Position numbers and translations under genes: made by a program. The notes below the pieces were generated by a model. That model searched no databases, was not told the origin of the DNA, and worked only from the letters and a program-made list of their open reading frames with translations. Positions 2,399 through 19,116 of a stretch of 26,291 nucleotides of DNA are shown piece by piece. This DNA comes from a virus. The stretch is from positions 1 through 26,291 of IMG/VR virus record IMGVR_UViG_3300010354_000542, one strand, 5' to 3'. Numbering within the stretch: the stretch's first letter is position 1; each line of letters opens with the position of its first letter.

Positions 2399-5300
2399 AT
2401 GGCAAGAAAAACCGGTACAAGAAACGTAACATCTAACGATTTTCAGCGTATAAGTGCGGATACCGCAGTCAAAGTTACCTCTCCGGGTAGCGTAGAATTA
2501 GATGCCGGTAATCAGGTAATTTTAAACGAAGGTGGCGCCGACACACAGATCAATCCAAACGGCGGTAATGTTCAAATAAATCAAACCGGAGGCGGCAACA
2601 CTGAGATTAATGACGGTGGTGGCGACGTATTCATTAACGCTGGTGGCGGCACTACTGAAATTAATTCAGGTGGCGGCGACTTAACAGTTGGTGCAAAAAC
2701 AGAATTCACTGACGGCAGTAATCCTACAAATCTTCTCGGCATTCCGTTAACAATAGACCAAAGTGAATTTAGTAATACTGCAGGTAGACAAGCTGCATCT
2801 GTATATTTTGCAGGTGGTGTAGGCATAGAAAAAGACCTCGCTGTTGGCGGTACAATCTTTGGAAGAATAGCACAAGCTCTTACCTCAACAAATATCCAGG
2901 TCACAGCCACAAACACCAATATAGAATTTTATCCAATTTTTGCGCAGACTCTAACAGCAACAAACGGAACTACTCTGTTTGGCGACCCGGATGACACAGA
3001 TATCGATACAACTTCTACAATTTTTAGATACAATCCAAGTATAGGTCGTTTAAGAATCAGCAAGGTCGAAGTTAAAAATACTGAAACATCAACCTCTACA
3101 GACACTGGTGCATTGAAAGTTACCGGTGGTGCATCAGTAGCAAAAGATTTAACCATCGGTGGCGTGGTCTACGGATATAACAATTTTACAACACAATATC
3201 TAGAAACCGTTTATGACAAATATTTAGGACTACAAGCACCTCAAAGTAAAATGGTTTTAGCCGCAGGCGCTACAGATATCTTTGGCGAGATTCAAGTTAG
3301 AGGCAAGAATCCAATTGGCACCGCTCCGGTTGTGACCAATGTGTTGTATGTAACAGTTGATGGAAACGATACCAACGACGGTCGCGCTCAAGACCCAAGT
3401 CGTGCCTGTCGTACCATTGGTGGTGCATTAAGAAGTCCCTATTACCAATCAGGTACACAGATTAGAGTAAGTGCTGGTCTCTATTTAGAAAATAATCCGT
3501 TGCGTTTGAAACCATATACCAGCATCATGGGATCAGACATTCGTACAACATTTATTGAACCAATCAATAAGACACAGGATCTCTTCCATGTTGAAAGTGG
3601 ATGTTATATTGCTTTCTGTACCTTCTTAAATGGAAGAAGCGGAAAATTAGCAGGCGACTATGCACCAGGCACAAATAGAGGAGCATATGCTACAGCGTTT
3701 CCTCCCCAGACAGGCAATGATAGAATAGATTTATTCCATTCTCCCTATATTCAAAATTGTACAAATCAGTCTGGTCCTTGGTTGAGAGACGGAACAATGT
3801 TTATTCCATCTCAGACCGTTCAAATTCCATCGGCAGTTGGAACCGGAACATGGGCATCAAATACAACATCGATTGTTGTCACTCTGTCAACCGGCACCGT
3901 AGAAGTTGGTCAATATATCAATGCTGGACAACAGAATCCAGGATTCTTCAATGCTAGAACTTTATTACTTGCAAACAAACCTTTCTTGCAAGGACAGGTA
4001 GTTGCATTTGTTGACACAACTTTTAACAGCGGATCGTTTACATATAATCAAGCCAAGTGCGAAAGAGATACTGCACTTATTCTCAATGCTATTGGCATTG
4101 ACATGTTATATGATAGCACTAGCGACAGTACATTTGCTGGTTTACAATACTGGAATCAAGGTTCTTACACCGGCGATATTCCAAATGAAATAACAGCAAC
4201 TATCGCTGCCATTACATATCTTAAAGGCATCGCCGCAACATATGTTGATGCTTCTGTAACAGCAACAGTTGATACACTGTTTACCACTGTAACAAATATT
4301 CTTTCTAACGGCGTAGCAGGAGTGAGCGACTGGGTAGTATACGGTGGATTACCAACAACTGCAACCTTAGTCGTATCATCTTATAACGGACTACAAACAA
4401 ATAGAACATCAATGCAGCATGCTGTATTGACTTATATCGATACTACCTATCCATCCCTAGTCTATAATACCAGCACTTGTTTTAGAGATGTTGGATATAT
4501 TATTGACAGTGTAAGTTTTGACTTACTGCATTCTGGTAATGTTCAAAGTATTAAGAGTGGTGTATACTACTATACTTACAGCACAACTTCAACCGCTATA
4601 CCTAACGAAGTGCCGCAAACAACTGCAGCATACAATTATATCAAGAGCATTTTACCTTACATTGTTACAAAAACTGCACTGCCTACCACTTATCAAACAG
4701 CAACGTCACAGGTGCTTGTTGGTAATGCCGGCAATGAATACGATGCAGAAGTGCTAGAATCAAAACTAGATATTATTACTGAAATTATTAGAAACGGACC
4801 AGCTGTAGCCACAGACAAAACACCAATTTCTTTGACTCTTAACACAGCAACATCAGCGTTGAATGCATATGCTTTGTTGATGACTAACACAAACTTCATC
4901 AAGGCAGAAGTCATTGCTTACATTGATGCCACAATGAACAACTTCAGTTATAACAGACAGAAATGTTATAGAGACGTTGCAATACTTGTTGAAAATATGG
5001 CTTACGATATGACCTTTGGTGGTAATCAAAAGAGTATTGAAAGCGGATTAGCATACTACGACGGTGTAGTCAGTGTAATTGCAGGCCAAGAAACACAAAC
5101 AATTAGTGCAATCGATTATCTAGCAGAACTTTGTAAAAAGATTGTTGTGAATACAACCTGTACAGTATTGCCATTGAACACTACATCAACAGGTTTAGTA
5201 TCATATCCTCAAGTGTTTAATACAGTGTTAACTGGCGGAGAGATTGCTATTGAACCAATTGAAAATTTATTCAATATCACTGTGGGAATCATTGAAGACG

Positions 5301-8300
5301 GTCCAAGTGCTGCTCCAACAGTATATGCAAGTCCTGGCCCAGATGCAGCCTTTGTAAGTGCAGAAATTCTGTTGCAAGCTAATAGAACTTTTGTTCAAGA
5401 GCAAACGCTAAATTACATCAATCATGTTCTTTGCATACCACCAAAGACTCTAGCATACAATCAAATCAAATGCCGCAGAGATGCCGGAGTGGTCCTTGAT
5501 AGCATTGCATCTGACATGTATTTTGATGGCTTTAGCCAATCAACTTTTGCTGGCAGACAATATTATGCCATAGATGGTTACACAGGTAGTATAGTAACAG
5601 AGATTCAACCAACAATTCGTGCAGTTAGATATCTCAGAGACATGTCATTAAAAGTTGTACAGAGCATTACAACTACTACAGACGCACAGGCCGGTGTAAC
5701 GAGATACAGCACAGGCACACAGTTTACTTCAACAAACATCGCCAGCAGCGATGCTATTGATGACATTGAACTGAAATTTAACACAATACTCAGCATTCTA
5801 AACGGTAATACAACAGGTTGGACTGATAATATTATTCCTAACAGCGGTGAAGGAACGTTATTACCAGGATACAATAATGCTATCGACTTACTACAACAAA
5901 ACAAGACCTATCTCAAACAAGAAATTCTAGCCTATATTACAGCAACTAACGAGGGATTTGTATTTGATACGGTAACTTGTGAAAGAGATATTGGATACAT
6001 GGTTGATGCGGTAACCTACGACATTAAGTTCGGCGGAAACAGAATGTCAGTACAATCTGGTTTAGGTTATTACGACAATGTAGGAACCACTAACGTCGTT
6101 GAAGGAGAAGTTACAGCAACCGTTGCAGCATTTAACTACATGGTAAGTGTTGCTGCTGCACTAATTACCGGTACCAATTACGTTCCTTTACAGACAGTAC
6201 ATAAACCTGTTACAAATCTAAGCACAGGAACATCTGCTGACGTAGAAAAATTACAAACAGCATTAAACACTGTAACTAATATTTTGTTAAACGGTCCTTC
6301 AGTAGCAGGGGCACAGTACCCATCTGCTATTACTCCTGTAGCAACTACTTCAACAAAGAATGCATTTGATATTATTAAAGCCAATAGAACATTCTTAACA
6401 GCAGAAACTATCGCCTACATTGATAATACATATAATCCAAATTCATTTAACTACGATCAAGATTTGTGTTATAGAGACACAGGTTTAATTCTAGATGCAG
6501 TGAGCCAAGACATCTTATTAGGTGGAAATCAAAAATCTCTCGAAGCAGGCAAATCATATTGGAACAAAGGATATAACTATGTATCCGGTCAGGTATCAAC
6601 AACTACCGCAGCAATTAACTACGCAAGAGATATTAGTTTACAAATTATCGCAAACAACACTGTAACTGTAGTAACCGGCACTGTTGCTACTCAAGTGATC
6701 AATAATTTCTTTGAGTACGGTAGTAATTACATGCCTCAAGAAGCAGTAACAAGAAATTACAATATTGTAACTAATATTATTGAAAACGGAGTCGCAGCAG
6801 CACCTCCTCTATACGCAGGTGGCGGTTTATTTGCATTAACCGGCCTAAACGGTTCAGATGTTCTACCCCCAGCAAAAGTTACAAGAGTAGATCTTGTAAC
6901 AGCAACCACTTATCGAATTGGATTGAGCACATCTACAATTGGATTTGGTGTGAATTCTAGTCTGTACTTTGGTGACGTTTGGGTATTTCCTTTACAGGAC
7001 GATCAAGTTGAAGAATTATCCTTAGAATATACAGGCAGTACTTCAACTTGGAATCAAAGAAAAGTTGATCCTATCGGTTCAATGGGTGGTAGCCTCGTTG
7101 ACGGTGCTGTTATAAGCGATCGATCTCCAATTCAATCATTTGTTTATGACGCATTCACCCAGGTCAATCAGGGCGGCATAGGAATTCATATCACCAACAA
7201 CGGTTATGCTCAATTGGTGTCGGTGTTTACAATTTTCTGTAGCATTGGTGTATTGGCAGACAATGGTGGCATTGCATCAATTACAAACTCAAACTGTAAC
7301 TTTGGCGATATCAGCATTCTGTCAAAGGGTTATGGGCCAAGAAAATTCAGCGGTACAGTTTTCAATCCTGCCTATAGAGCCTATCCGTTCAGTCCGCAAG
7401 GAACTGAACCTGGTAGCGGAGATCCTCTGCCATATCTAGATCAATTCTATCCAACAGGCTATTTCCCAAACCTAGGAAGAGTAAACATATTTGTGCCTGA
7501 TGAAGACGACAGACCACACATTGGACTAGTAATGGAAGTAGAGCCACCAGACGGCCATCTTAATGAACAAAGCTTCCCAGGATTCTTAAATTCACAGCCA
7601 AGTACCAGTACTTTGCACACTGGTACAATTGTGCTAAACAATATTTCTACAGACGATATTGCGATTGGCAACACAGTATTCATTAGAGATCAGTTTGGTA
7701 AACAATATGATGATTTCTATTACCTACATGATCCCGATGGAAACCCCGTTGACGCTGCTGGTAACAGATTAAATGATCCTGCCGCAGCCCCTGCCAACCC
7801 AAATTACCTCAAGTGGTATGCTGCAACTGGTACCGTGGTAACCGATGTAAACTTTAATGCTATCACTTTGAATCAGGCATTGACTAACGGTGGCGGCGAT
7901 ATTACAAACCCGACTTACTTTACTCTATACTTCTGCGGTAACAGTTATTACACTGTTCAAACCAGTAGTGATGCTAACTCGCCATATGTACCAAATACAA
8001 ACAAATTGGCGGCAAATACCAATACAAATTATCAAGGATCTACCAGCAGTCAAATAGCAGCTCATATTGCATCCATCAATCACCTCAAATCTTGTGTAGG
8101 CGATATTGTATCCAATGTTGCGGTAACACCAACAACAGGTAATACTGCTACACAAATCATTAACACCACGGTGATAGGCGGCTCAGATGCTATTCCGTTC
8201 ATTGACTTAAGATTGGATTATATTACTTCTATAGTAGGCGCAGCAAATCTCACAGCGGCAAATGCAGTAGTACCAGCAAATCTAAGAGCAAGACAGGGAA

Positions 8301-8905
8301 TAGTGCCACCAGGCTCAGGTGCAGCAGTAACATTGATAGAGTTGAATATTGATTTCTTAGCTGCAGAAGTAGCAGCTTGGGCAATTGACAATTACGGATC
8401 GGAGCTAGGTTCTTCAACATCGTATCAACAAGCTAAGTGTGAAAGAGACGTCAAAATAATTCTACAAGCAATGATATATGATTTAGAAACTGGCGGCAAT
8501 TATAACAGCGTGTTTGCTGGATTGAGCTATTGGATGATACCAGGAACCTACCATATAGTCACCCTGGGCGAGGCAGTAAGACGACCTGATTTGTTCCCAG
8601 ATGGAGCAACTGTTAACTTCTATCAAAGAAGCTACATCAGTGCCTCTGGTTATCTGTTTGAATATGTAGGTGCTGGCACAAATTATGGAGCATTACCTCA
8701 AAGAGGTGTTGCCGATCCGGATCAATTAAAGGAAGTAGTTCAGTTAAATAATGGTAAAGTGTTCTTTACCAGCACTGATCAAAACGGTGACTTCCGCATA
8801 GGTCCGGGGTTAGTAATTGCACAGGCAACAGGTGTTCTCACTGGTAGAACATTTGTACAAAGTTTATACGCAAATATGACACCGTTTATATTGGCAATTG
8901 AATAA
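2399..8905 (+). CDS. Giant beta-helix structural/fibre protein with Cys-Arg-Asp repeats
   Basis: A 2168-residue virion protein, the largest gene here. From the N-terminus: a ladder of GGGxTxIN units (about 45-97); two GGVGI/GGASV beta modules (about 135-155 and 240-260); a pectate-lyase-like right-handed beta-helix start (about 318-480; VDGNDTNDGRAQDPSRACRT); six repeats of 140-170 residues, each with YNxxxCxRD (at about 549, 689, 851, 1020, 1189, 1352); a resumed beta-helix (about 1560-1680; SMGGSLVDGAVISDRSPI); a linker; a seventh Cys-Arg-Asp unit (about 2009); and a C-terminus with KVFFTSTDQNGDFRIGPG, an ending I recall from marine T4-like tail fibres. There is no signal peptide. A tail-fibre or baseplate-associated host-contact role is inferred. 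No glycosidase catalytic residues could be assigned with confidence. Confidence 0.82.
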   Translation: MARKTGTRNVTSNDFQRISADTAVKVTSPGSVELDAGNQVILNEGGADTQINPNGGNVQINQTGGGNTEINDGGGDVFINAGGGTTEINSGGGDLTVGAKTEFTDGSNPTNLLGIPLTIDQSEFSNTAGRQAASVYFAGGVGIEKDLAVGGTIFGRIAQALTSTNIQVTATNTNIEFYPIFAQTLTATNGTTLFGDPDDTDIDTTSTIFRYNPSIGRLRISKVEVKNTETSTSTDTGALKVTGGASVAKDLTIGGVVYGYNNFTTQYLETVYDKYLGLQAPQSKMVLAAGATDIFGEIQVRGKNPIGTAPVVTNVLYVTVDGNDTNDGRAQDPSRACRTIGGALRSPYYQSGTQIRVSAGLYLENNPLRLKPYTSIMGSDIRTTFIEPINKTQDLFHVESGCYIAFCTFLNGRSGKLAGDYAPGTNRGAYATAFPPQTGNDRIDLFHSPYIQNCTNQSGPWLRDGTMFIPSQTVQIPSAVGTGTWASNTTSIVVTLSTGTVEVGQYINAGQQNPGFFNARTLLLANKPFLQGQVVAFVDTTFNSGSFTYNQAKCERDTALILNAIGIDMLYDSTSDSTFAGLQYWNQGSYTGDIPNEITATIAAITYLKGIAATYVDASVTATVDTLFTTVTNILSNGVAGVSDWVVYGGLPTTATLVVSSYNGLQTNRTSMQHAVLTYIDTTYPSLVYNTSTCFRDVGYIIDSVSFDLLHSGNVQSIKSGVYYYTYSTTSTAIPNEVPQTTAAYNYIKSILPYIVTKTALPTTYQTATSQVLVGNAGNEYDAEVLESKLDIITEIIRNGPAVATDKTPISLTLNTATSALNAYALLMTNTNFIKAEVIAYIDATMNNFSYNRQKCYRDVAILVENMAYDMTFGGNQKSIESGLAYYDGVVSVIAGQETQTISAIDYLAELCKKIVVNTTCTVLPLNTTSTGLVSYPQVFNTVLTGGEIAIEPIENLFNITVGIIEDGPSAAPTVYASPGPDAAFVSAEILLQANRTFVQEQTLNYINHVLCIPPKTLAYNQIKCRRDAGVVLDSIASDMYFDGFSQSTFAGRQYYAIDGYTGSIVTEIQPTIRAVRYLRDMSLKVVQSITTTTDAQAGVTRYSTGTQFTSTNIASSDAIDDIELKFNTILSILNGNTTGWTDNIIPNSGEGTLLPGYNNAIDLLQQNKTYLKQEILAYITATNEGFVFDTVTCERDIGYMVDAVTYDIKFGGNRMSVQSGLGYYDNVGTTNVVEGEVTATVAAFNYMVSVAAALITGTNYVPLQTVHKPVTNLSTGTSADVEKLQTALNTVTNILLNGPSVAGAQYPSAITPVATTSTKNAFDIIKANRTFLTAETIAYIDNTYNPNSFNYDQDLCYRDTGLILDAVSQDILLGGNQKSLEAGKSYWNKGYNYVSGQVSTTTAAINYARDISLQIIANNTVTVVTGTVATQVINNFFEYGSNYMPQEAVTRNYNIVTNIIENGVAAAPPLYAGGGLFALTGLNGSDVLPPAKVTRVDLVTATTYRIGLSTSTIGFGVNSSLYFGDVWVFPLQDDQVEELSLEYTGSTSTWNQRKVDPIGSMGGSLVDGAVISDRSPIQSFVYDAFTQVNQGGIGIHITNNGYAQLVSVFTIFCSIGVLADNGGIASITNSNCNFGDISILSKGYGPRKFSGTVFNPAYRAYPFSPQGTEPGSGDPLPYLDQFYPTGYFPNLGRVNIFVPDEDDRPHIGLVMEVEPPDGHLNEQSFPGFLNSQPSTSTLHTGTIVLNNISTDDIAIGNTVFIRDQFGKQYDDFYYLHDPDGNPVDAAGNRLNDPAAAPANPNYLKWYAATGTVVTDVNFNAITLNQALTNGGGDITNPTYFTLYFCGNSYYTVQTSSDANSPYVPNTNKLAANTNTNYQGSTSSQIAAHIASINHLKSCVGDIVSNVAVTPTTGNTATQIINTTVIGGSDAIPFIDLRLDYITSIVGAANLTAANAVVPANLRARQGIVPPGSGAAVTLIELNIDFLAAEVAAWAIDNYGSELGSSTSYQQAKCERDVKIILQAMIYDLETGGNYNSVFAGLSYWMIPGTYHIVTLGEAVRRPDLFPDGATVNFYQRSYISASGYLFEYVGAGTNYGALPQRGVADPDQLKEVVQLNNGKVFFTSTDQNGDFRIGPGLVIAQATGVLTGRTFVQSLYANMTPFILAIE
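2531..2695 (+). repeat. GGGxTxIN coding repeat ladder
   Basis: Six successive units of 8-10 codons encode GG(G)-x-x-x-IN (GGADTQINPN, GGNVQINQT, GGGNTEIND, GGGDVFINA, GGGTTEINS, GGGDLTV). The Gly turns and alternating Ile/Asn suggest a short beta-roll or beta-solenoid at the N-terminus of the giant protein. Confidence 0.8.
3953..6826 (+). repeat. Six tandem Cys-Arg-Asp domain repeats
   Basis: Six diverged protein repeats lie head to tail. Each has a first part like LLxANRxFLxxExIAYID, then YNxxxCxRD, a GGNxxSxxAGxxYY-like part, a TAAxxYxxxI helix, and a closing xIxxNGxxAAPxxYA-like part. The Tyr/Phe codon that opens the motif falls at 4043, 4463, 4949, 5456, 5963 and 6452. They share protein motifs but little DNA identity, so they are old duplications. 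Confidence 0.85.
8341..8560 (+). repeat. Seventh, detached Cys-Arg-Asp repeat (first half)
   Basis: YQQAKCERDVKIILQAMIYD with a following TGGNYNSVFAGLSYW repeats the signature of the six-copy array about 2 kb further on (motif at 8423). A segment resembling the second half of a unit (AAHIASINHLKSCVGDIVSN) lies before it at about 8060-8120, so the halves appear in reversed order. Confidence 0.75.
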
Positions 8906-12266: not shown

Positions 12267-15200
12267 ATGTCGAATATTTCAAAAGACTTTGTAACAAAAA
12301 ATGGTATAATTCTAAAAGGTACCAGTCTTGTTACCGGTCTTACATCGCAGACAAACGCTCTACAGGTAGATAGCGGTGCAGCAATTGCAAAGAATTTAAT
12401 TGTAGGAAGTACTACAACAATTTACGGTGCTGTAACTATTGCAAATAATGCAGCATCAACAAGCACCACAACAGGTGCATTAATTATCGAAGGCGGAGTA
12501 GGCATTGGCGGCAACCTAAATGTTGCAGGCACTGTGTTTGGCGTGATTACCGGCGTGATCAGTACAGCGTCCAATCTCGCAGGCGGCACAGCAGGACAAC
12601 TAGTTTATCAATCTGCTCCGGGCCTTACCGCATATGCTGGTCCCGGTAGTTCAGGAGAGGTTTTAACATCTGGTGGAACTGGTGCTCCTGTTTATGTAAG
12701 TACAACTACGTTGTATGTAAACAGAGCTGTGTCAGCTGACAACGCATCGGGAACAGCATCTCAAGCAAACAGTCTCAATGGCGGAGTATTAGGTGAAATA
12801 CCCTATCAATCAGCAGCCAATACCACACTATTCATTGGTACCGGTACACAAGGTAGTCTATTGCAGATGGGTGCAAACACTGCATCCTTTGTATCAACTA
12901 CTAGTATACAAGTAAGTTTTGCAGCCAATCTTCTTGCTGGAGCAGGAGGTAGTTTACCCTATCAGTCAGCAGCAAATGCAACCGCAATGTTGCCACTATC
13001 TGCTACACTTGGTGCAGTTCTAACTGCTGGTGCAAGTGCACCTACCTATATTACGCAGGTAGTTGCTAGAAATGGTACCGGTAATACTACAACAGCTAGC
13101 GGACAGAGTCTATTGGTTAGTAGCGGTGGATTGGGCGTTATTGGCGACAGTCATTTTGCAGATAACGTATATATTGGCAAACAACTAACTGTTCAAGGTG
13201 CTACTACATTTGAAGATACTGTTACATTCAACGGTACTGCAACCTTTGTATTCAGTACTAACACTTACTATACAGACAACATTGTAAACATTCACACACC
13301 GCCCGGTGGTGTATTGAATACTTGGACCAGCAATGACGGTAAAGACATTGGTGTGGTGTTTCACAATTTTGTTGACGGCTACGATAATGATGCTTTCCTA
13401 GGTTATCATAACCAGTCAGGATATTTAGAGTGGTTTGACAAAGGATCTGAACTGTCAACCGGAACGTTTGTTCATACAAGATACGGAACATTTAAAACCG
13501 GCGCAGTATTATTAGATAATAATACAGGTGTACACGATTCAGTATCTGGAGCATTGCAGGTAAAAGGTGGAGTAGGCATAGCAGGCAATCTTTTCGTTGC
13601 AGGTGTAGTTACAGCAACTACATTTAACGGTGCCTTGAGTGGTACCGCGGCACTGGCCACTGACATTGCAGGCGGCACTGCCGGTCAACTATTGTACCAA
13701 AATGGCGCTAATGACACTGCTTTCGCCGGACCAGGAACGGCAGGACAGATTCTTGTAAGTGCCGGAGCAGCAGCACCAGTTTATACCAATACAAGCAGTA
13801 TCTATGTCAATAGTGCTGTCAATGCAGAAAAACTCTACGGCGGCACAGCAGGTCAATTGGTCTATCAAAGTTCTACTGGTACTACAGCATTTGCTGGTCC
13901 GGGAACCGCAGGAGAAGTTTTAGTAAGCAATGGAGCCAATGCTCCTTCATATGTAAGTACAACCTCTCTTTATGTTAACAGGGCAACAATTGCTGACAGT
14001 GCTGCAGGCGGAAGTGGACAGGTTGCTACAGAACGAAGTATAACAAATGCTGCTCATTTTATTACCTTTGTTGATAGTAACAATGCAACATCAACACCAG
14101 AAACTGTTTATACTACTAGTACCGTAACAGTAAATCCTGCTACGGGTGTAATTCAAGCTAATACTTTTTTAGGTACCGCTACTACAGCAACTAATATTGC
14201 TGCAGGAACAGCAGGTCAATTGATTTATCAATCTGCTCCAGGCGTAACAGCATTCGCAGGTCCAGGCAGTGCAGGACAGGTTTTGACCAGTAATGGTACT
14301 GGCGCACCGACTTATGTAGCAACGTCAACACTATATGTATTTAGAGCGACAGTAGCAGACAGTGCCGCAGGAAGTTCAGCACAGGCAAACAATTTAAATG
14401 GCGGTGCACTCGGCCAAATTCCTTATCAAGTTGCATCTGACACCACAGCATTCATTGGTACCGGTACCAACGGTAGCATACTACAAATGGGTGCGAACAC
14501 GGCAACATTTGTAGCTACAGCTAGTATCTATGTAAACAGTTCTGTTAACACTGAAAAAATATTTGGTGGCACAGCAGGTCAATTAGTCTATCAAAGTGCA
14601 GCCAATACCACAGCGTTTGCAGGTCCTGGTACAGCCGGACAGATATTGGTAAGTGCAGGTGCAAGCGCACCGGTATACACCAATACCAGTAGCATTTATA
14701 TTAATAGAGCAGTCACTGCGGATGCGGCTACTGTGTCAACAAACATCAGCGGCGGTGCCCTTGGAGAAATCCCATATCAGTTATCTGCAGGTAGTACAGC
14801 CTTTATTGGAACTGGCACAATTGGTAGCATGTTACAGATGGGTGCTAACACAGCTACATTTGTAGCCACCGCAACAATTTATGTAAACAGAGCGGTTATT
14901 TCAGACAACGACAGTGGCGGCAGTGCAGGAGGATTGAGATATCAGACCGGAGCAAATGCCAGCACGTTCTTAAACATTGGAAGTGCTGGACAATTATTGA
15001 GAGTAAACTCAGCAGGTACAGCCCCTGAGTGGGTAAACACCAGCAGTGTGTATGCTGCTGCTGCTGTCTCGTCACAAAACTTGTTTGGCGGAACAACGGG
15101 ACAACTTGTTTACCAAAGTGCTGCCGGTACCACAGCTTTCGCAGGACCTGGTACTGCAGGACAGCTTCTAGTCAGCGCTGGTGCAAGCGCACCAGTTTAT

Positions 15201-15587
15201 ACAAATACTGGTAGCATCTATGTTAACAGTGCCGTTAATGCGCAGACATTGTACGGCGGCACCGCTGGTCAGCTACATTATCAAAGTGGTGTTGGTGTAA
15301 CAGCATTTGCAGGACCAGGTACCACAGGTCAAATTTTAATAAGTGGCGGTACAGGTGCACCAAATTATCAAAGCACTCTCACAGTAGATGCCAATGTTGT
15401 TAATGTAAATTCTACAGTGGCATCAGTTTCAACTACTACAGGTGCATTGATTGTCGACGGTGGTGTTGGTGTTGCAGGTAGCGTATATGTCGGTAACAGA
15501 GTGGGATTTGTAAACGCATCAAATGTTAGCGCGGTATATCAAATCTATAATACTGTGACCAATAGTTTAGATACGGTATTTGCATAA
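12267..15587 (+). CDS. Long tail fibre protein with tile repeats
   Basis: An 1106-residue Gly/Thr/Ser/Ala-rich fibre. The N-terminus (MSNISKDFVTKNGIILKG) is a known style of fibre start. It carries 12 tile repeats of about 50 residues of the form GGTAGQLVYQxxxxxTAFAG followed by PGTAGQILVSAGxxAPxYxx, a DNIVNIHT/NDGKDIGVVFHNF domain (about 335-415), an HFITFVDSNNATSTPETVYT segment (about 597-620) and several GGVGIxG modules. It ends VYQIYNTVTNSLDTVF, a C-terminal cap I recall from marine phage fibres. No S74 domain is present. GGAG at 12256-12259 supports the ATG. The stop codon overlaps the next start by one base (TAATG), implying translational coupling to the 71-residue protein. A homotrimeric shaft that reaches the host surface is inferred. 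Confidence 0.8.
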   Translation: MSNISKDFVTKNGIILKGTSLVTGLTSQTNALQVDSGAAIAKNLIVGSTTTIYGAVTIANNAASTSTTTGALIIEGGVGIGGNLNVAGTVFGVITGVISTASNLAGGTAGQLVYQSAPGLTAYAGPGSSGEVLTSGGTGAPVYVSTTTLYVNRAVSADNASGTASQANSLNGGVLGEIPYQSAANTTLFIGTGTQGSLLQMGANTASFVSTTSIQVSFAANLLAGAGGSLPYQSAANATAMLPLSATLGAVLTAGASAPTYITQVVARNGTGNTTTASGQSLLVSSGGLGVIGDSHFADNVYIGKQLTVQGATTFEDTVTFNGTATFVFSTNTYYTDNIVNIHTPPGGVLNTWTSNDGKDIGVVFHNFVDGYDNDAFLGYHNQSGYLEWFDKGSELSTGTFVHTRYGTFKTGAVLLDNNTGVHDSVSGALQVKGGVGIAGNLFVAGVVTATTFNGALSGTAALATDIAGGTAGQLLYQNGANDTAFAGPGTAGQILVSAGAAAPVYTNTSSIYVNSAVNAEKLYGGTAGQLVYQSSTGTTAFAGPGTAGEVLVSNGANAPSYVSTTSLYVNRATIADSAAGGSGQVATERSITNAAHFITFVDSNNATSTPETVYTTSTVTVNPATGVIQANTFLGTATTATNIAAGTAGQLIYQSAPGVTAFAGPGSAGQVLTSNGTGAPTYVATSTLYVFRATVADSAAGSSAQANNLNGGALGQIPYQVASDTTAFIGTGTNGSILQMGANTATFVATASIYVNSSVNTEKIFGGTAGQLVYQSAANTTAFAGPGTAGQILVSAGASAPVYTNTSSIYINRAVTADAATVSTNISGGALGEIPYQLSAGSTAFIGTGTIGSMLQMGANTATFVATATIYVNRAVISDNDSGGSAGGLRYQTGANASTFLNIGSAGQLLRVNSAGTAPEWVNTSSVYAAAAVSSQNLFGGTTGQLVYQSAAGTTAFAGPGTAGQLLVSAGASAPVYTNTGSIYVNSAVNAQTLYGGTAGQLHYQSGVGVTAFAGPGTTGQILISGGTGAPNYQSTLTVDANVVNVNSTVASVSTTTGALIVDGGVGVAGSVYVGNRVGFVNASNVSAVYQIYNTVTNSLDTVFA
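12582..15372 (+). repeat. Twelve tile repeats in the 1106-residue fibre
   Basis: I count 12 units of four related types. Type A contains TAFAGPGTAGQILVS, type B FIGTGTxGSxLQMGANTATF, type C TFLxIGxAGQLLRVN, and type D ATAMLPL. Order by eye: A B D, inserted domain, A A, second inserted domain, A B A B C A A. Copies are similar in protein; those I compared differ mostly at third codon positions. Confidence 0.85.
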
Positions 15588-15852: not shown

Positions 15853-18800
15853 ATGGCAAAATTACTTTCTAACACAAGAATTTACGGTACAGCCACAGTA
15901 GACACTCGTTTGTTTATCAACGGTGGATTGAGCGTACACTCAACAAATTCTGGTGTACTTCAAACACTAGGTGGTGTAGGAGTATGGGGAGGTATTTTTG
16001 CCAGCGGAGTTGTAACAGCAACAAGTTTTGTTGGCAATGTTACAGGAACAGCTAGCACAGCCACTACGTCAACGCAGGCCAATAATTTAAATGGCGGGAC
16101 AGCGGGTCAATTAGTCTATCAAAGTGCGGCCAATACTACAGCTTTTGCAGGTCCTGGCACCGCTGGACAGATTTTAGTTAGTGCCGGTACAAGCGCACCA
16201 ACATACACAAACACTTCAAGTATCTATGTTAATAGAGCAGTGACAGCAGATACGACACCATCCGCTACTGCAGCCACAAATCTTTCAGGTGGATTGCTAG
16301 GTCAGATACCTTATCAATTAGCAGCAGGCAGCACAGCATTTATTGGTACTGGCACTGCAGGCACAATACTGCAAATGGGCGCCAACACAGCAACATTTGT
16401 TGCAACATCCACAATATATGTAAACAGAGCTGTGCTTGCCGACAACGACGTAGGGGGTGCAGCTGGTGGATTGAGATATCAGACCGCGGCTAATGCCAGT
16501 ACCTTTCTGTCGATTGGCACTGCTGGACAAGTATTAACAGTAAACAGTGGTGCAACAGCACCACAGTGGACTACAACTGGTAGCATATACGCAGGGGCAG
16601 CAACCAGTGCAGTAAATTTATTTGGCGGGGCTGGCGGGAGCTTACCTTATCAAAGCGCAGCAAATGCCACAACAATGTTGAGCATTGGCTCAGCAAACTC
16701 TATTCTTGTTAGCAACGGTACTTCTCCAAGTTGGACAACCAGTCCTACCATCGGCGGTAATGTTACTATTGTAGGAAATTTAACCGTTCAAGGCACTACA
16801 GTCATCGTTGATAGCACAGTAACAAACATCAGCGATCCAATATTTGAAATTGGAACAGGGCCTAATGGTGCACTACCTTCCAGCGACGACGGCAAGGATA
16901 GAGGAATTGCATTTGATTGGCATAATGGTACGAGTGCAAGAACAGGTTTCTTTGGATTTGATAGAAGTACAGGATATTTTACATTCATTAGCAGTGCTTC
17001 AATTGTCAATGAAGTTGTATCTCCCGCTGGTGGAACTACAAGAGGAGCCCTTGATGTAAATCTTGCAGGAGGCACTTCCGGCCAATTAGTCTATCAAAGT
17101 GCTGCCAATACTACAGCATTTGCAGGACCAGGTACAGCCGGTCAACTTTTAGTCAGTGCCGGCACAAGTGCACCAACATATACAAATACCAGCAGTATCT
17201 ATGTTGGCTTTGCAAATCAGTCAAACCATTTGCTTGGCGGAGCAGCTGGCGGTATTCATTACCAAACAGGTGCAGGCGCCAGCACGTTCCTAGCAATTGG
17301 AACAGCAGGACAGATTCTACGTGTAAACGCAGGAGCAACAGCACCAGAATGGATTAGTACTTCATCGCTTTACAGTAATAGTGCAGTTAATGCTCAAACC
17401 TTGTTTGGTGGTACTGCAGGACAGTTAGTATATCAGAGCGGAGTTGGTGTTACCGCGTTTGCCGGTCCCGGCACAGCAGGTCAAATTTTAATCAGTGCTG
17501 GAACAAGTGCACCAACATATATAAACACCAGCAGTATCTATGTTGGCTTTTCAAACCAATCAAACCATTTACTTGGTGGAGCAGCTGGTGGTATTCATTA
17601 CCAAACAGGTGCAGGCGCCAGCACATTCCTATCAATTGGAACAGCAGGACAGGTACTTACAGTCAATGCAGGAGCAACAGCTCCGCAATGGAGTACCACA
17701 TCTTCGTTCTATGCGGGATTTGCAAATCAGTCAAATCATTTACTAGGCGGCACCGCCGGTCAGCTACATTATCAAACCGGTTCTGGTGCAAGTGCATTTG
17801 CAGGACCGGGTACAGCCGGACAGATCCTTGTAAGCGCAGGTACCAGCGCACCAACATACACAAACACTTCGAGCATATACGTAAACAGAGCTGTACTAGC
17901 AGATAATGATGTAGGCGGTGCAGCAGGCGGACTGCGTTATCAAACTGCAGCCAATGCAAGTACATTCTTGTCAATCGGCACTGCTGGCCAAATGCTGCGC
18001 GTAAACTCAGGCGCCACTGCACCTGAGTGGGTAGGAACTTCATCTATATACGTAAACAGAGCCGTGTTAGCAGATAGTGCTACCGGTAATGCAGGATCCG
18101 CTACAAATTTAGCTGGTGGAACGGCCGGACAGGTTCCTTATCAAACAGGAGCAGGAGCTACAAGTTTCTTTGGTCCTGGCACAGCAGGTCAAATTTTAGT
18201 CAGTGCTGGCACCAGCGCACCAACCTATACAAATACATCTAGCATTTATGTTAATGCTTCGGTAAGGGCAGATACTGTTTTAACAGTTGCTAGACCAAAC
18301 ACCGGACTACATTATCTAACATTTGTAGATAGCCACAACGCTAGCGCAACAGCTGAATCATTATATACAACCTCAACTATCAACTTAGATCCAAGAACTG
18401 GAAACGTCGCGTTAGGCACTACTGCAACATCAAACAAATTTGAAGTAGCCGGCTCTTATGGACAGTTGTTTAGTGTAGCCGATACTTTTACCGGTACCAT
18501 TTTTGCTGCTAGCGATATTTCAGGAATACCAAGTATAGAAGTATTAGATACAGGACTTGTAAAACTAGCTCAATACAACGGACAAGTTACTGTTAATACA
18601 GCAACTTCTATTTCTAGTAGCGGATTGACTGCATGGACAGCTACCTGGGTACGATCAATCATCGTAAATCAAAATGGCAGAATTGCCAGTTTAGGTGTAG
18701 GAACAGATGCTTCTGGAACGGCCGGTGAGATCCGCGCAACCAATGAAATTACAGCATATTATTCAGATCGTAGACTTAAAGATAATGTCAAGATAATCGA

Positions 18801-19116
18801 CAATCCGATAGACAAAATTTTATCTCTACATGGTATTACCTACACACCAAATGCTGTCGCAGCAAAATTTGGGTACGATCAAGGTAAGAAATTAGTGGGT
18901 GTATTTGCTGATGAGGTCGAAGCTGTTTTACCAGAAGCAGTTCGCCCAGCACCCTTCGATACAGATACTAACGGTACTAGCATTAGCGGTGATAACTATA
19001 AAACTGTTCAATACGAAAAACTAGTGCCTCTATTAATCGAAGCTGTAAAAGCACAGCAAAAATTAATTGAAAAATTAGAAAAAGATTTACAAACACTGAA
19101 ACAGGCGTTAAAATAA
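15853..19116 (+). CDS. Tail fibre with C-terminal S74 chaperone domain
   Basis: A 1087-residue fibre closely related to the 1106-residue one. It has a GGVGVWG module (about 36-56), 11 tile repeats, an inserted domain with DDGKDRGIAFDW and GFFGFDRSTGYFTFI (about 325-385), and an HYLTFVDSHNASATAESLYT segment (about 818-837). The C-terminus is an intramolecular chaperone of the endosialidase type (peptidase S74), about 969-1087, with the SDRRLK motif giving Ser971 and Lys976, spaced as in the self-cleaving Ser/Lys dyad of the family. A final Lys/Leu-rich coiled coil (about 1055-1087) should trimerise it. The family folds the trimeric fibre and is then usually cut off before the catalytic Ser, here releasing about 117 residues. 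A receptor-binding fibre is inferred. It has its own late-type box. Confidence 0.88.
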   Translation: MAKLLSNTRIYGTATVDTRLFINGGLSVHSTNSGVLQTLGGVGVWGGIFASGVVTATSFVGNVTGTASTATTSTQANNLNGGTAGQLVYQSAANTTAFAGPGTAGQILVSAGTSAPTYTNTSSIYVNRAVTADTTPSATAATNLSGGLLGQIPYQLAAGSTAFIGTGTAGTILQMGANTATFVATSTIYVNRAVLADNDVGGAAGGLRYQTAANASTFLSIGTAGQVLTVNSGATAPQWTTTGSIYAGAATSAVNLFGGAGGSLPYQSAANATTMLSIGSANSILVSNGTSPSWTTSPTIGGNVTIVGNLTVQGTTVIVDSTVTNISDPIFEIGTGPNGALPSSDDGKDRGIAFDWHNGTSARTGFFGFDRSTGYFTFISSASIVNEVVSPAGGTTRGALDVNLAGGTSGQLVYQSAANTTAFAGPGTAGQLLVSAGTSAPTYTNTSSIYVGFANQSNHLLGGAAGGIHYQTGAGASTFLAIGTAGQILRVNAGATAPEWISTSSLYSNSAVNAQTLFGGTAGQLVYQSGVGVTAFAGPGTAGQILISAGTSAPTYINTSSIYVGFSNQSNHLLGGAAGGIHYQTGAGASTFLSIGTAGQVLTVNAGATAPQWSTTSSFYAGFANQSNHLLGGTAGQLHYQTGSGASAFAGPGTAGQILVSAGTSAPTYTNTSSIYVNRAVLADNDVGGAAGGLRYQTAANASTFLSIGTAGQMLRVNSGATAPEWVGTSSIYVNRAVLADSATGNAGSATNLAGGTAGQVPYQTGAGATSFFGPGTAGQILVSAGTSAPTYTNTSSIYVNASVRADTVLTVARPNTGLHYLTFVDSHNASATAESLYTTSTINLDPRTGNVALGTTATSNKFEVAGSYGQLFSVADTFTGTIFAASDISGIPSIEVLDTGLVKLAQYNGQVTVNTATSISSSGLTAWTATWVRSIIVNQNGRIASLGVGTDASGTAGEIRATNEITAYYSDRRLKDNVKIIDNPIDKILSLHGITYTPNAVAAKFGYDQGKKLVGVFADEVEAVLPEAVRPAPFDTDTNGTSISGDNYKTVQYEKLVPLLIEAVKAQQKLIEKLEKDLQTLKQALK
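16093..18252 (+). repeat. Eleven tile repeats in the S74 fibre
   Basis: Eleven units of the same types as in the neighbouring fibre, in the order A B C D, inserted domain, A C A C A C A. The regular A-C alternation in the second half suggests duplication of an A+C pair. Confidence 0.85.
17191..17652 (+). repeat. Near-identical long direct repeat inside the S74 fibre
   Basis: Bases 17191-17313 and 17530-17652 are 123-base direct repeats offset by exactly 339 bases (113 codons). They encode the AGGIHYQTGAGASTFL unit and its upstream VGF(A/S)NQSNHLLGG linker with only a few base differences, far closer than other tile pairs. This indicates a recent in-frame duplication or gene conversion. Confidence 0.85.

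Follow-up and report, generated by a model that had tools for sequence, protein, structure and literature searches.

The chromophore motif of phycobiliproteins is Cys-x-Arg-Asp (CxRD), the Cys bonding ring A of the bilin while Arg and Asp keep the remainder in place (Rockwell et al. 2023, PMC10151467). Among the bilin biosynthesis-associated globins (BBAGs), BBAG-1 and BBAG-3 with CxRD are self-assembling and are loaded with bilin without a lyase (PMC10151467), and T-type lyases act at beta Cys153 (PMC10452541). Phages also carry bilin genes. What phage cpeT does "remains unresolved" (PMC3037559), and for phage hemO-pcyA/X one possible partner put forward in 2024 is a bilin-binding globin (PMC11480375). 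Here we analyzed a stretch of viral DNA of 26,291 nucleotides (IMG/VR record IMGVR_UViG_3300010354_000542, positions 1 to 26,291; hereafter the window), which encodes a giant tail fibre with a tandem array of CxRD units. The analysis established the insertion site of the array, its variation in copy number, the near-invariance of CxRD, the relation of the units to phycobiliproteins in sequence and, by prediction, in fold, and their association with bilin genes. The array is best explained as phycobiliprotein-like domains that occupy one surface loop of the fibre beta-helix, vary freely in number, and would each bind a bilin, a reading to which we assign a probability of roughly 0.6.

The fibre gene (2399..8905; 2168 aa) was assigned by PHROG tail fibre families and tblastn; it and all of its parts described below lie on the + strand. 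C.RD occurs at residues 554, 694, 856, 1025, 1194, 1357, and 2014 of the protein. A hidden Markov model (HMM) of the domain revealed six full tandem units in the loop, with E-values of 1e-42 to 1e-58, far beyond chance. Unit 1 spans 3914..4294 (Cys554 at 4058, E 4e-44), unit 2 4295..4798 (Cys694 at 4478, E 2e-58), unit 3 4799..5317 (Cys856 at 4964, E 1e-51), unit 4 5318..5806 (Cys1025 at 5471, E 1e-42), unit 5 5807..6304 (Cys1194 at 5978, E 3e-54), and unit 6 6305..6802 (Cys1357 at 6467). At unit 6, the Pfam family Phycobilisome (PF00502) matched residues 1315-1440 of the fibre above its cut-off (E 1e-5; 26 bits against 22.2), and it did so again in a relative (L016). PF00502 reached E<=0.1 in 11 of 70 units, the remaining units being too divergent.

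Profiles of the units were compared with all PDB sequences. The best match of a mixed profile was R-phycocyanin (1f99, 1.8e-5), and almost all of its 49 matches were phycobiliproteins. Two further profiles, which had no sequence in common, gave the same family: phycocyanin was the best match of the freshwater-only profile (2.1e-4), and the cultured-cyanophage-only profile matched phycocyanin at 3.5e-4, with nearly all of its 47 matches being phycobiliproteins. The alignments span the helices through the CxRD helix (KCxRDIGYxxxxxxxxxxxGG). The AlphaFold2 model of unit 5 had six helices (pLDDT 91, pTM 0.86). When it was searched against PDB with Foldseek, the top 24 matches were all phycobiliproteins (probability 1.00, TM about 0.6), and rank 25 was a globin sensor. 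An independent model of a one-unit relative (L134) retrieved the same phycobiliprotein family, together with a pectin methylesterase (2nsp) and a phage fibre (9rkv). Matches among viral predicted structures were unnamed or tail/structural proteins, most of them from Synechococcus phages or uncultured ones. The phycobiliprotein-type globin fold was thus found by prediction, with AlphaFold2 and Foldseek, in two models. In the unit model CxRD lies on the long central helix, and the motif aligns with KCARDIGYYLRM.. of phycocyanin. These results show that the units are phycobiliprotein-like domains, with a bilin-binding-globin fold as predicted. We use the term phycobiliprotein-like, and not phycobiliprotein proper, because the X-Y helical hairpin is absent from the unit model.

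Among approximately 700 aligned units, CxRD was conserved at 98% (C), 98% (R), and 99% (D). Asp at Cys+14 (100%) and Tyr at Cys+30 (99.7%) were also conserved, and the unit profile showed no prominent conserved His. Where the last helix begins, a second Cys (strict pattern N.DP.SCADVQS.IDTL) was found in 39 of 70 units of cyanophage isolates and in 0 of 773 freshwater units; unit 5 of the window has Ser at this position. In phycobiliproteins, beta Cys153 is near the last helix. The second Cys of cyanophage units may be its equivalent, the phycocyanin alignment ending before this position, and T-type lyases such as CpeT could act there.

The units were associated with bilin genes. Of the phage records, 70 contained cpeT of the bilin-lyase type, and every one was a cyanophage or marine virus. 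It was located just upstream of the giant array-bearing fibre gene in 13 of the 13 cyanophages examined, nine by gene map and four by coordinates (ACG-2014j, S-H9-1, S-PM2, and S-WAM2). In the nine gene maps, cpeT was followed often by tRNAs and a 2OG-Fe(II) oxygenase and then by a fibre gene of 10-13.5 kb, and all nine giant genes contained units. In Sf-CH3, pcyA ends 38 bp ahead of the array gene. Among isolates scanned for both, CpeT was found in 6/9 unit carriers and 0/4 non-carriers (p about 0.05, calculated by hand with lineage not controlled). Viral contigs selected only for a PcyA/X-type reductase (FDBR) carried arrays in 7/7 cases when they were >=100 kb (8-44 unit matches), while at least one unit match was found in 4/26 of those <100 kb. 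Contigs selected by ribonucleotide reductase carried arrays in 0/4 cases (7/7 vs 0/4, p about 0.003 by hand with lineage not controlled; two of the seven, G060 and G061, are near-identical). In two array contigs (G044 and G051), a heme oxygenase gene adjoined the FDBR gene; in jumbo-like contigs, heme oxygenase or FDBR genes directly beside the array gene were not seen.

Other features of these loci were also recorded. In large phage contigs, curli genes are found beside the heme oxygenase-FDBR pair, namely csgF and csgG in G044 (L190 5757-6991) and a csgF-like open reading frame (ORF) in G051 (L191 37-516). Many cyanophages have 2OG-Fe(II) oxygenases in the interval from cpeT to the array gene, and in Pelagibacter phage Mosig (L440) an uninterrupted row of genes for three such oxygenases, a heme oxygenase, and an FDBR precedes the neck genes.

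These findings suggest that some phages may carry bilin pigments on their fibres. Each unit would bind a bilin through a thioether between the CxRD Cys and ring A, while Arg and Asp would keep its remainder in place. The bilin would be loaded during fibre synthesis in the infected cell, either attaching by itself or with the help of a lyase, such as CpeT, encoded by host or phage, and the result would be a virion with a pigmented arm. Such an arm could serve light-dependent adsorption, receptor contact, or photoprotection, and the array could double as a length-adjustable arm. The putative role in adsorption is attractive because several marine cyanomyoviruses are reported to adsorb in a light-dependent manner (PMC2984593). 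A wider proposal, to which we would give a little less than an even chance, is that virions bear covalent bilins in tandem fibre and baseplate domains and that phage cpeT, pcyA/X, and heme oxygenase serve partly for pigmenting the virion rather than the host antenna; the pigment could then let fibres sense or use light, bearing on light-dependent adsorption.

Several observations weigh against bilin binding or against the relationship itself. The sequence similarity is limited to approximately the first 60 profile positions, the Pfam support is marginal, and Foldseek gave zero matches in PDB below E 0.001. The unit model begins directly at the helix pair preceding the CxRD helix, without an N-terminal X-Y hairpin. 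The missing elements are presumably the X-Y hairpin of phycobiliproteins (alpha/beta dimers, ring assembly). Asp+14 and Tyr+30 are conserved like CxRD yet are no phycobiliprotein signature, so that a different site is possible. On the genomic side, zero units were detected in P-SSM2, which has pebS and ho1, or in pelagiphage Mosig, which has heme oxygenase and FDBR, and heme oxygenase, FDBR, and CpeT were not seen in most array contigs, which are fragments. The phage of the window resembles relatives of PA5oct and Atu_ph07, psbA was absent from all 50 array contigs of its type, and no bilin source is evident for its host. The cpeT synteny and the FDBR association may in part reflect shared ancestry. 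Contigs of the window neck lineage that were >=90 kb carried arrays in 3/3 cases, and lineage is a real confounder of the FDBR association because these contigs carry arrays too.

The main alternative, possible and yet on the whole unlikely, is that the units are a globin-like domain derived from bilin-binding globins and now ligand-free. They would form arms, rigid and extensible, keeping the receptor-binding tip off the virion, with copy number tuning the reach and with CxRD, Asp, and Tyr kept for folding or domain contacts. The range of copy numbers (0 to 14 at the loop, up to 18 matches further on, and 44 matches in one record) and the multiple insertion sites agree with a spacer, as do the equal conservation of Asp and Tyr with Cys and the jumbo-like phages without an evident bilin source in most contigs. 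However, folding alone hardly explains why a free Cys is retained at 98% and the motif keeps its exact geometry, and a ligand-free spacer leaves aside the linkage to cpeT and FDBR genes and the second Cys of the cyanophage class where T-type lyases would act. A pigmented arm and a reach-setting spacer can both be true.

It is improbable that the conserved Cys serves disulfides, or a metal or another ligand such as haem or cobalamin, and not a bilin. In the many cyanophage units with two Cys, these could pair, but the 773 freshwater units keep the first Cys and never show the second-Cys pattern, so that there is no conserved partner within the unit there. Another ligand would suit the globin-like fold, and photoglobins, which are globin relatives, have been tied to B12-binding proteins (PMC10151467); the unit profile, however, is without a prominent conserved His. 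Still less probable is a chance or convergent likeness of a six-helix bundle with a CxRD helix: the modest sequence E-values (1e-5 to 1e-3), the alignments ending near profile position 60, and the TM of about 0.6 would allow it, but two profiles from disjoint phages and the fold search pick the same family from the whole PDB, with the functional motif in register. Phycobiliprotein-like units that would bind bilin are the reading we retain.

As to the setting of the array, the initial annotation had placed it at 3358-7370, within a beta-helix that resumes after the repeats, with about 1000 residues of repeats in one loop. These coordinates were right, and the HMM located the six units between the helix halves. 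Approximately 1117 residues separate the N-terminal half (ending in SPYIQNCTN) from the C-terminal half (MGGSLVDG..NNGYAQLVSV), and about 965 of these are repeats. The N-terminal half comprises residues 314-462 (3338..3784), as found with an HMM from the S-RIP2, B23, P-SSM2, and SynM01 homologues and from strands in the L134 model, and the C-terminal half comprises residues 1560-1650 (7076..7348), which align at 40-48% identity with uninterrupted homologues. Homologues with an unbroken helix at the same junction, of the kind by which the continuity was to be checked, were found in S-RIP2, P-SSM2, SynMITS9220M01, B23, and many IMG/VR records, along with relatives that have other unit numbers there. 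In the homologues of S-RIP2, P-SSM2, and SynMITS9220M01 there are no units at the junction and the helix runs through, and in that of B23 the helix is whole and five units are located behind it. The loop in homologues with an unbroken helix is 2-65 aa long, and in relatives with loops of 15-65 residues the flanks are still recognisable, e.g. SPYIQNCSNINGPW...GAGGGMLIDGD. Among the loci fetched, 37 ORFs contained both helix halves contiguously and the C-terminal domain with zero units, and other homologues had 1, 2, 4, 5, 6, 8, or 10-14 units in the loop, with as many as 18 matches counted behind the helix. That two independent beta-helix domains are joined by a linker array is scarcely credible: each half does have several strands, but in the 37 homologous ORFs the halves are contiguous and the junction is flanked by the same sequence.

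Structure prediction agreed with this arrangement. The one-unit relative (566 aa; pLDDT 88, pTM 0.82) was modelled as beta-helix, small beta subdomain, helical unit, remaining subdomain, and beta-helix. By alignment to this model, the subdomain in the window is probably split by the array, with a first half at residues ~468-512 (3800..3934; strands 175-207 of the model) and a second half at residues ~1488-1545 (6860..7033; strands 384-417). A single continuous beta-helix with the array in a loop is thus supported, its continuity resting mainly on the homologues with an empty site. In Sf-CH5 and S-SCSM1, the units lie one stretch earlier, ahead of PYIRNC. Unit sites and numbers thus differ among homologues, and the unit is a module inserted in several loops of a common scaffold. 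It is plausible that the array forms a protruding arm whose copy number sets its reach, as first supposed. The split subdomain, a permuted seventh unit, and the phycobiliprotein-like identity of the units go beyond the initial annotation. A PF13229 (beta-helix) search of the whole record gave no match, and phmmer with the entire fibre protein against PDB gave a single weak, irrelevant match.

By tblastn, the array matched 208 of 50,697 phage records, all of Synechococcus or Prochlorococcus phages or named cyanophages save one "marine virus". The matched proteins were annotated as tail fibre, short tail fibre, structural protein, or gp7 baseplate initiator. With the whole protein of ORF 2399-8905, matches were found in 172 phage records, nearly all cyanophages. 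No cellular source of the units was found in two scans of genome contigs, and the plasmid collection gave no match either; such scans detect close relatives only. The neck protein of the window is nearest to those of jumbo phages such as PA5oct and Atu_ph07, and neither the matches listed nor the named tally groups include a cyanophage. psbA was found in 0/50 window-type array contigs versus 13/14 cyanophage isolates, and HLIP in 0/36 versus 14/14. On these counts and the jumbo-phage-like neck protein, we rejected the possibility that the window phage is a typical cyanophage. In one contig (G082; 399,796 bases) that also has an FDBR gene, a 6682-residue open frame at ~104042-122812 contains most of the 44 CxRD unit matches. 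Downstream of the fibre in L132 (11709-15290), L133, and L125-L127, separate ORFs consist largely of CxRD units (6-7 matches) without beta-helix.

The remaining features of the window lie toward the 3' end of the fibre gene and beyond it. The seventh unit (8024..8548) is circularly permuted, its C-terminal half (residues 1876-1961) preceding the N-terminal half with Cys2014 (residues 1951-2050), as seen from HMM matches to positions 101-184 and then 6-163; the order is as though from unequal recombination between two units. A conserved C-terminal fibre domain follows at 8603..8902 (phrog_17885/3442; C-terminal-domain HMM). Two more long fibre-like ORFs, at 12267-15587 and 15853-19116, are rich in GGTAGQLVYQSAANTTAFAGPGTAGQ-type repeats, and the end of the latter resembles an S74-type intramolecular chaperone (DRRLKDNV..).

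Were bilins bound to the units, the fibres of some phages would be coloured and might sense light, something for which we found no description. Bilin binding would also offer a direct answer to why cyanophages carry cpeT (PMC3037559), to why bilins are made by Prochlorococcus phages and by phages whose hosts are not photosynthetic (PMC2984593, PMC11480375), and to the light dependence of adsorption in several cyanomyoviruses (PMC2984593). Even without pigment, the analysis identifies an unannotated domain in many giant proteins called "tail fibre" or "structural", from phages of both marine and fresh waters; baseplate proteins annotated as gp7 are among them. Our search of the open-access literature turned up neither a description of such domains in phage fibres nor a proposal of a phage structural protein as a bilin acceptor.

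Compared with known systems, the units are most like phycobiliproteins (PF00502: phycocyanin, allophycocyanin, and phycoerythrin), the best match by sequence and fold, with which they share the globin-like helical fold and CxRD on a long helix after F/Y..KC, followed by GG(N/T). They differ in having six helices without the X-Y hairpin, in their tandem arrangement within a virion fibre, in the extra invariant Asp (+14) and Tyr (+30), and in that their chromophore is inferred. BBAGs are likewise phycobiliprotein relatives outside the phycobilisome, some of which have CxRD, bind bilins lyase-free, and are encoded with heme oxygenase and FDBR (PMC10151467); they are cellular and come from bilin-biosynthesis gene clusters, whereas the units in phages are repeated within a structural protein. 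Genes of this kind occur on the same contigs as the arrays, with pcyA adjacent in Sf-CH3 and no such adjacency in jumbo-like contigs. The phage bilin genes cpeT, pebS, pcyA/pcyX, and hemO (PMC3037559, PMC11480375) are found in the same phages, in cyanophages often beside the array gene, but have been described as auxiliary metabolic genes for host pigments or as having an unresolved role. The fibre backbone is a pectate-lyase-like beta-helix as in other phage tail fibres, and it differs in that one loop holds approximately 1100 residues, mostly of another fold. The fold is a known one in a new setting, the phage fibre, and a proven pigmented virion would be categorically new.

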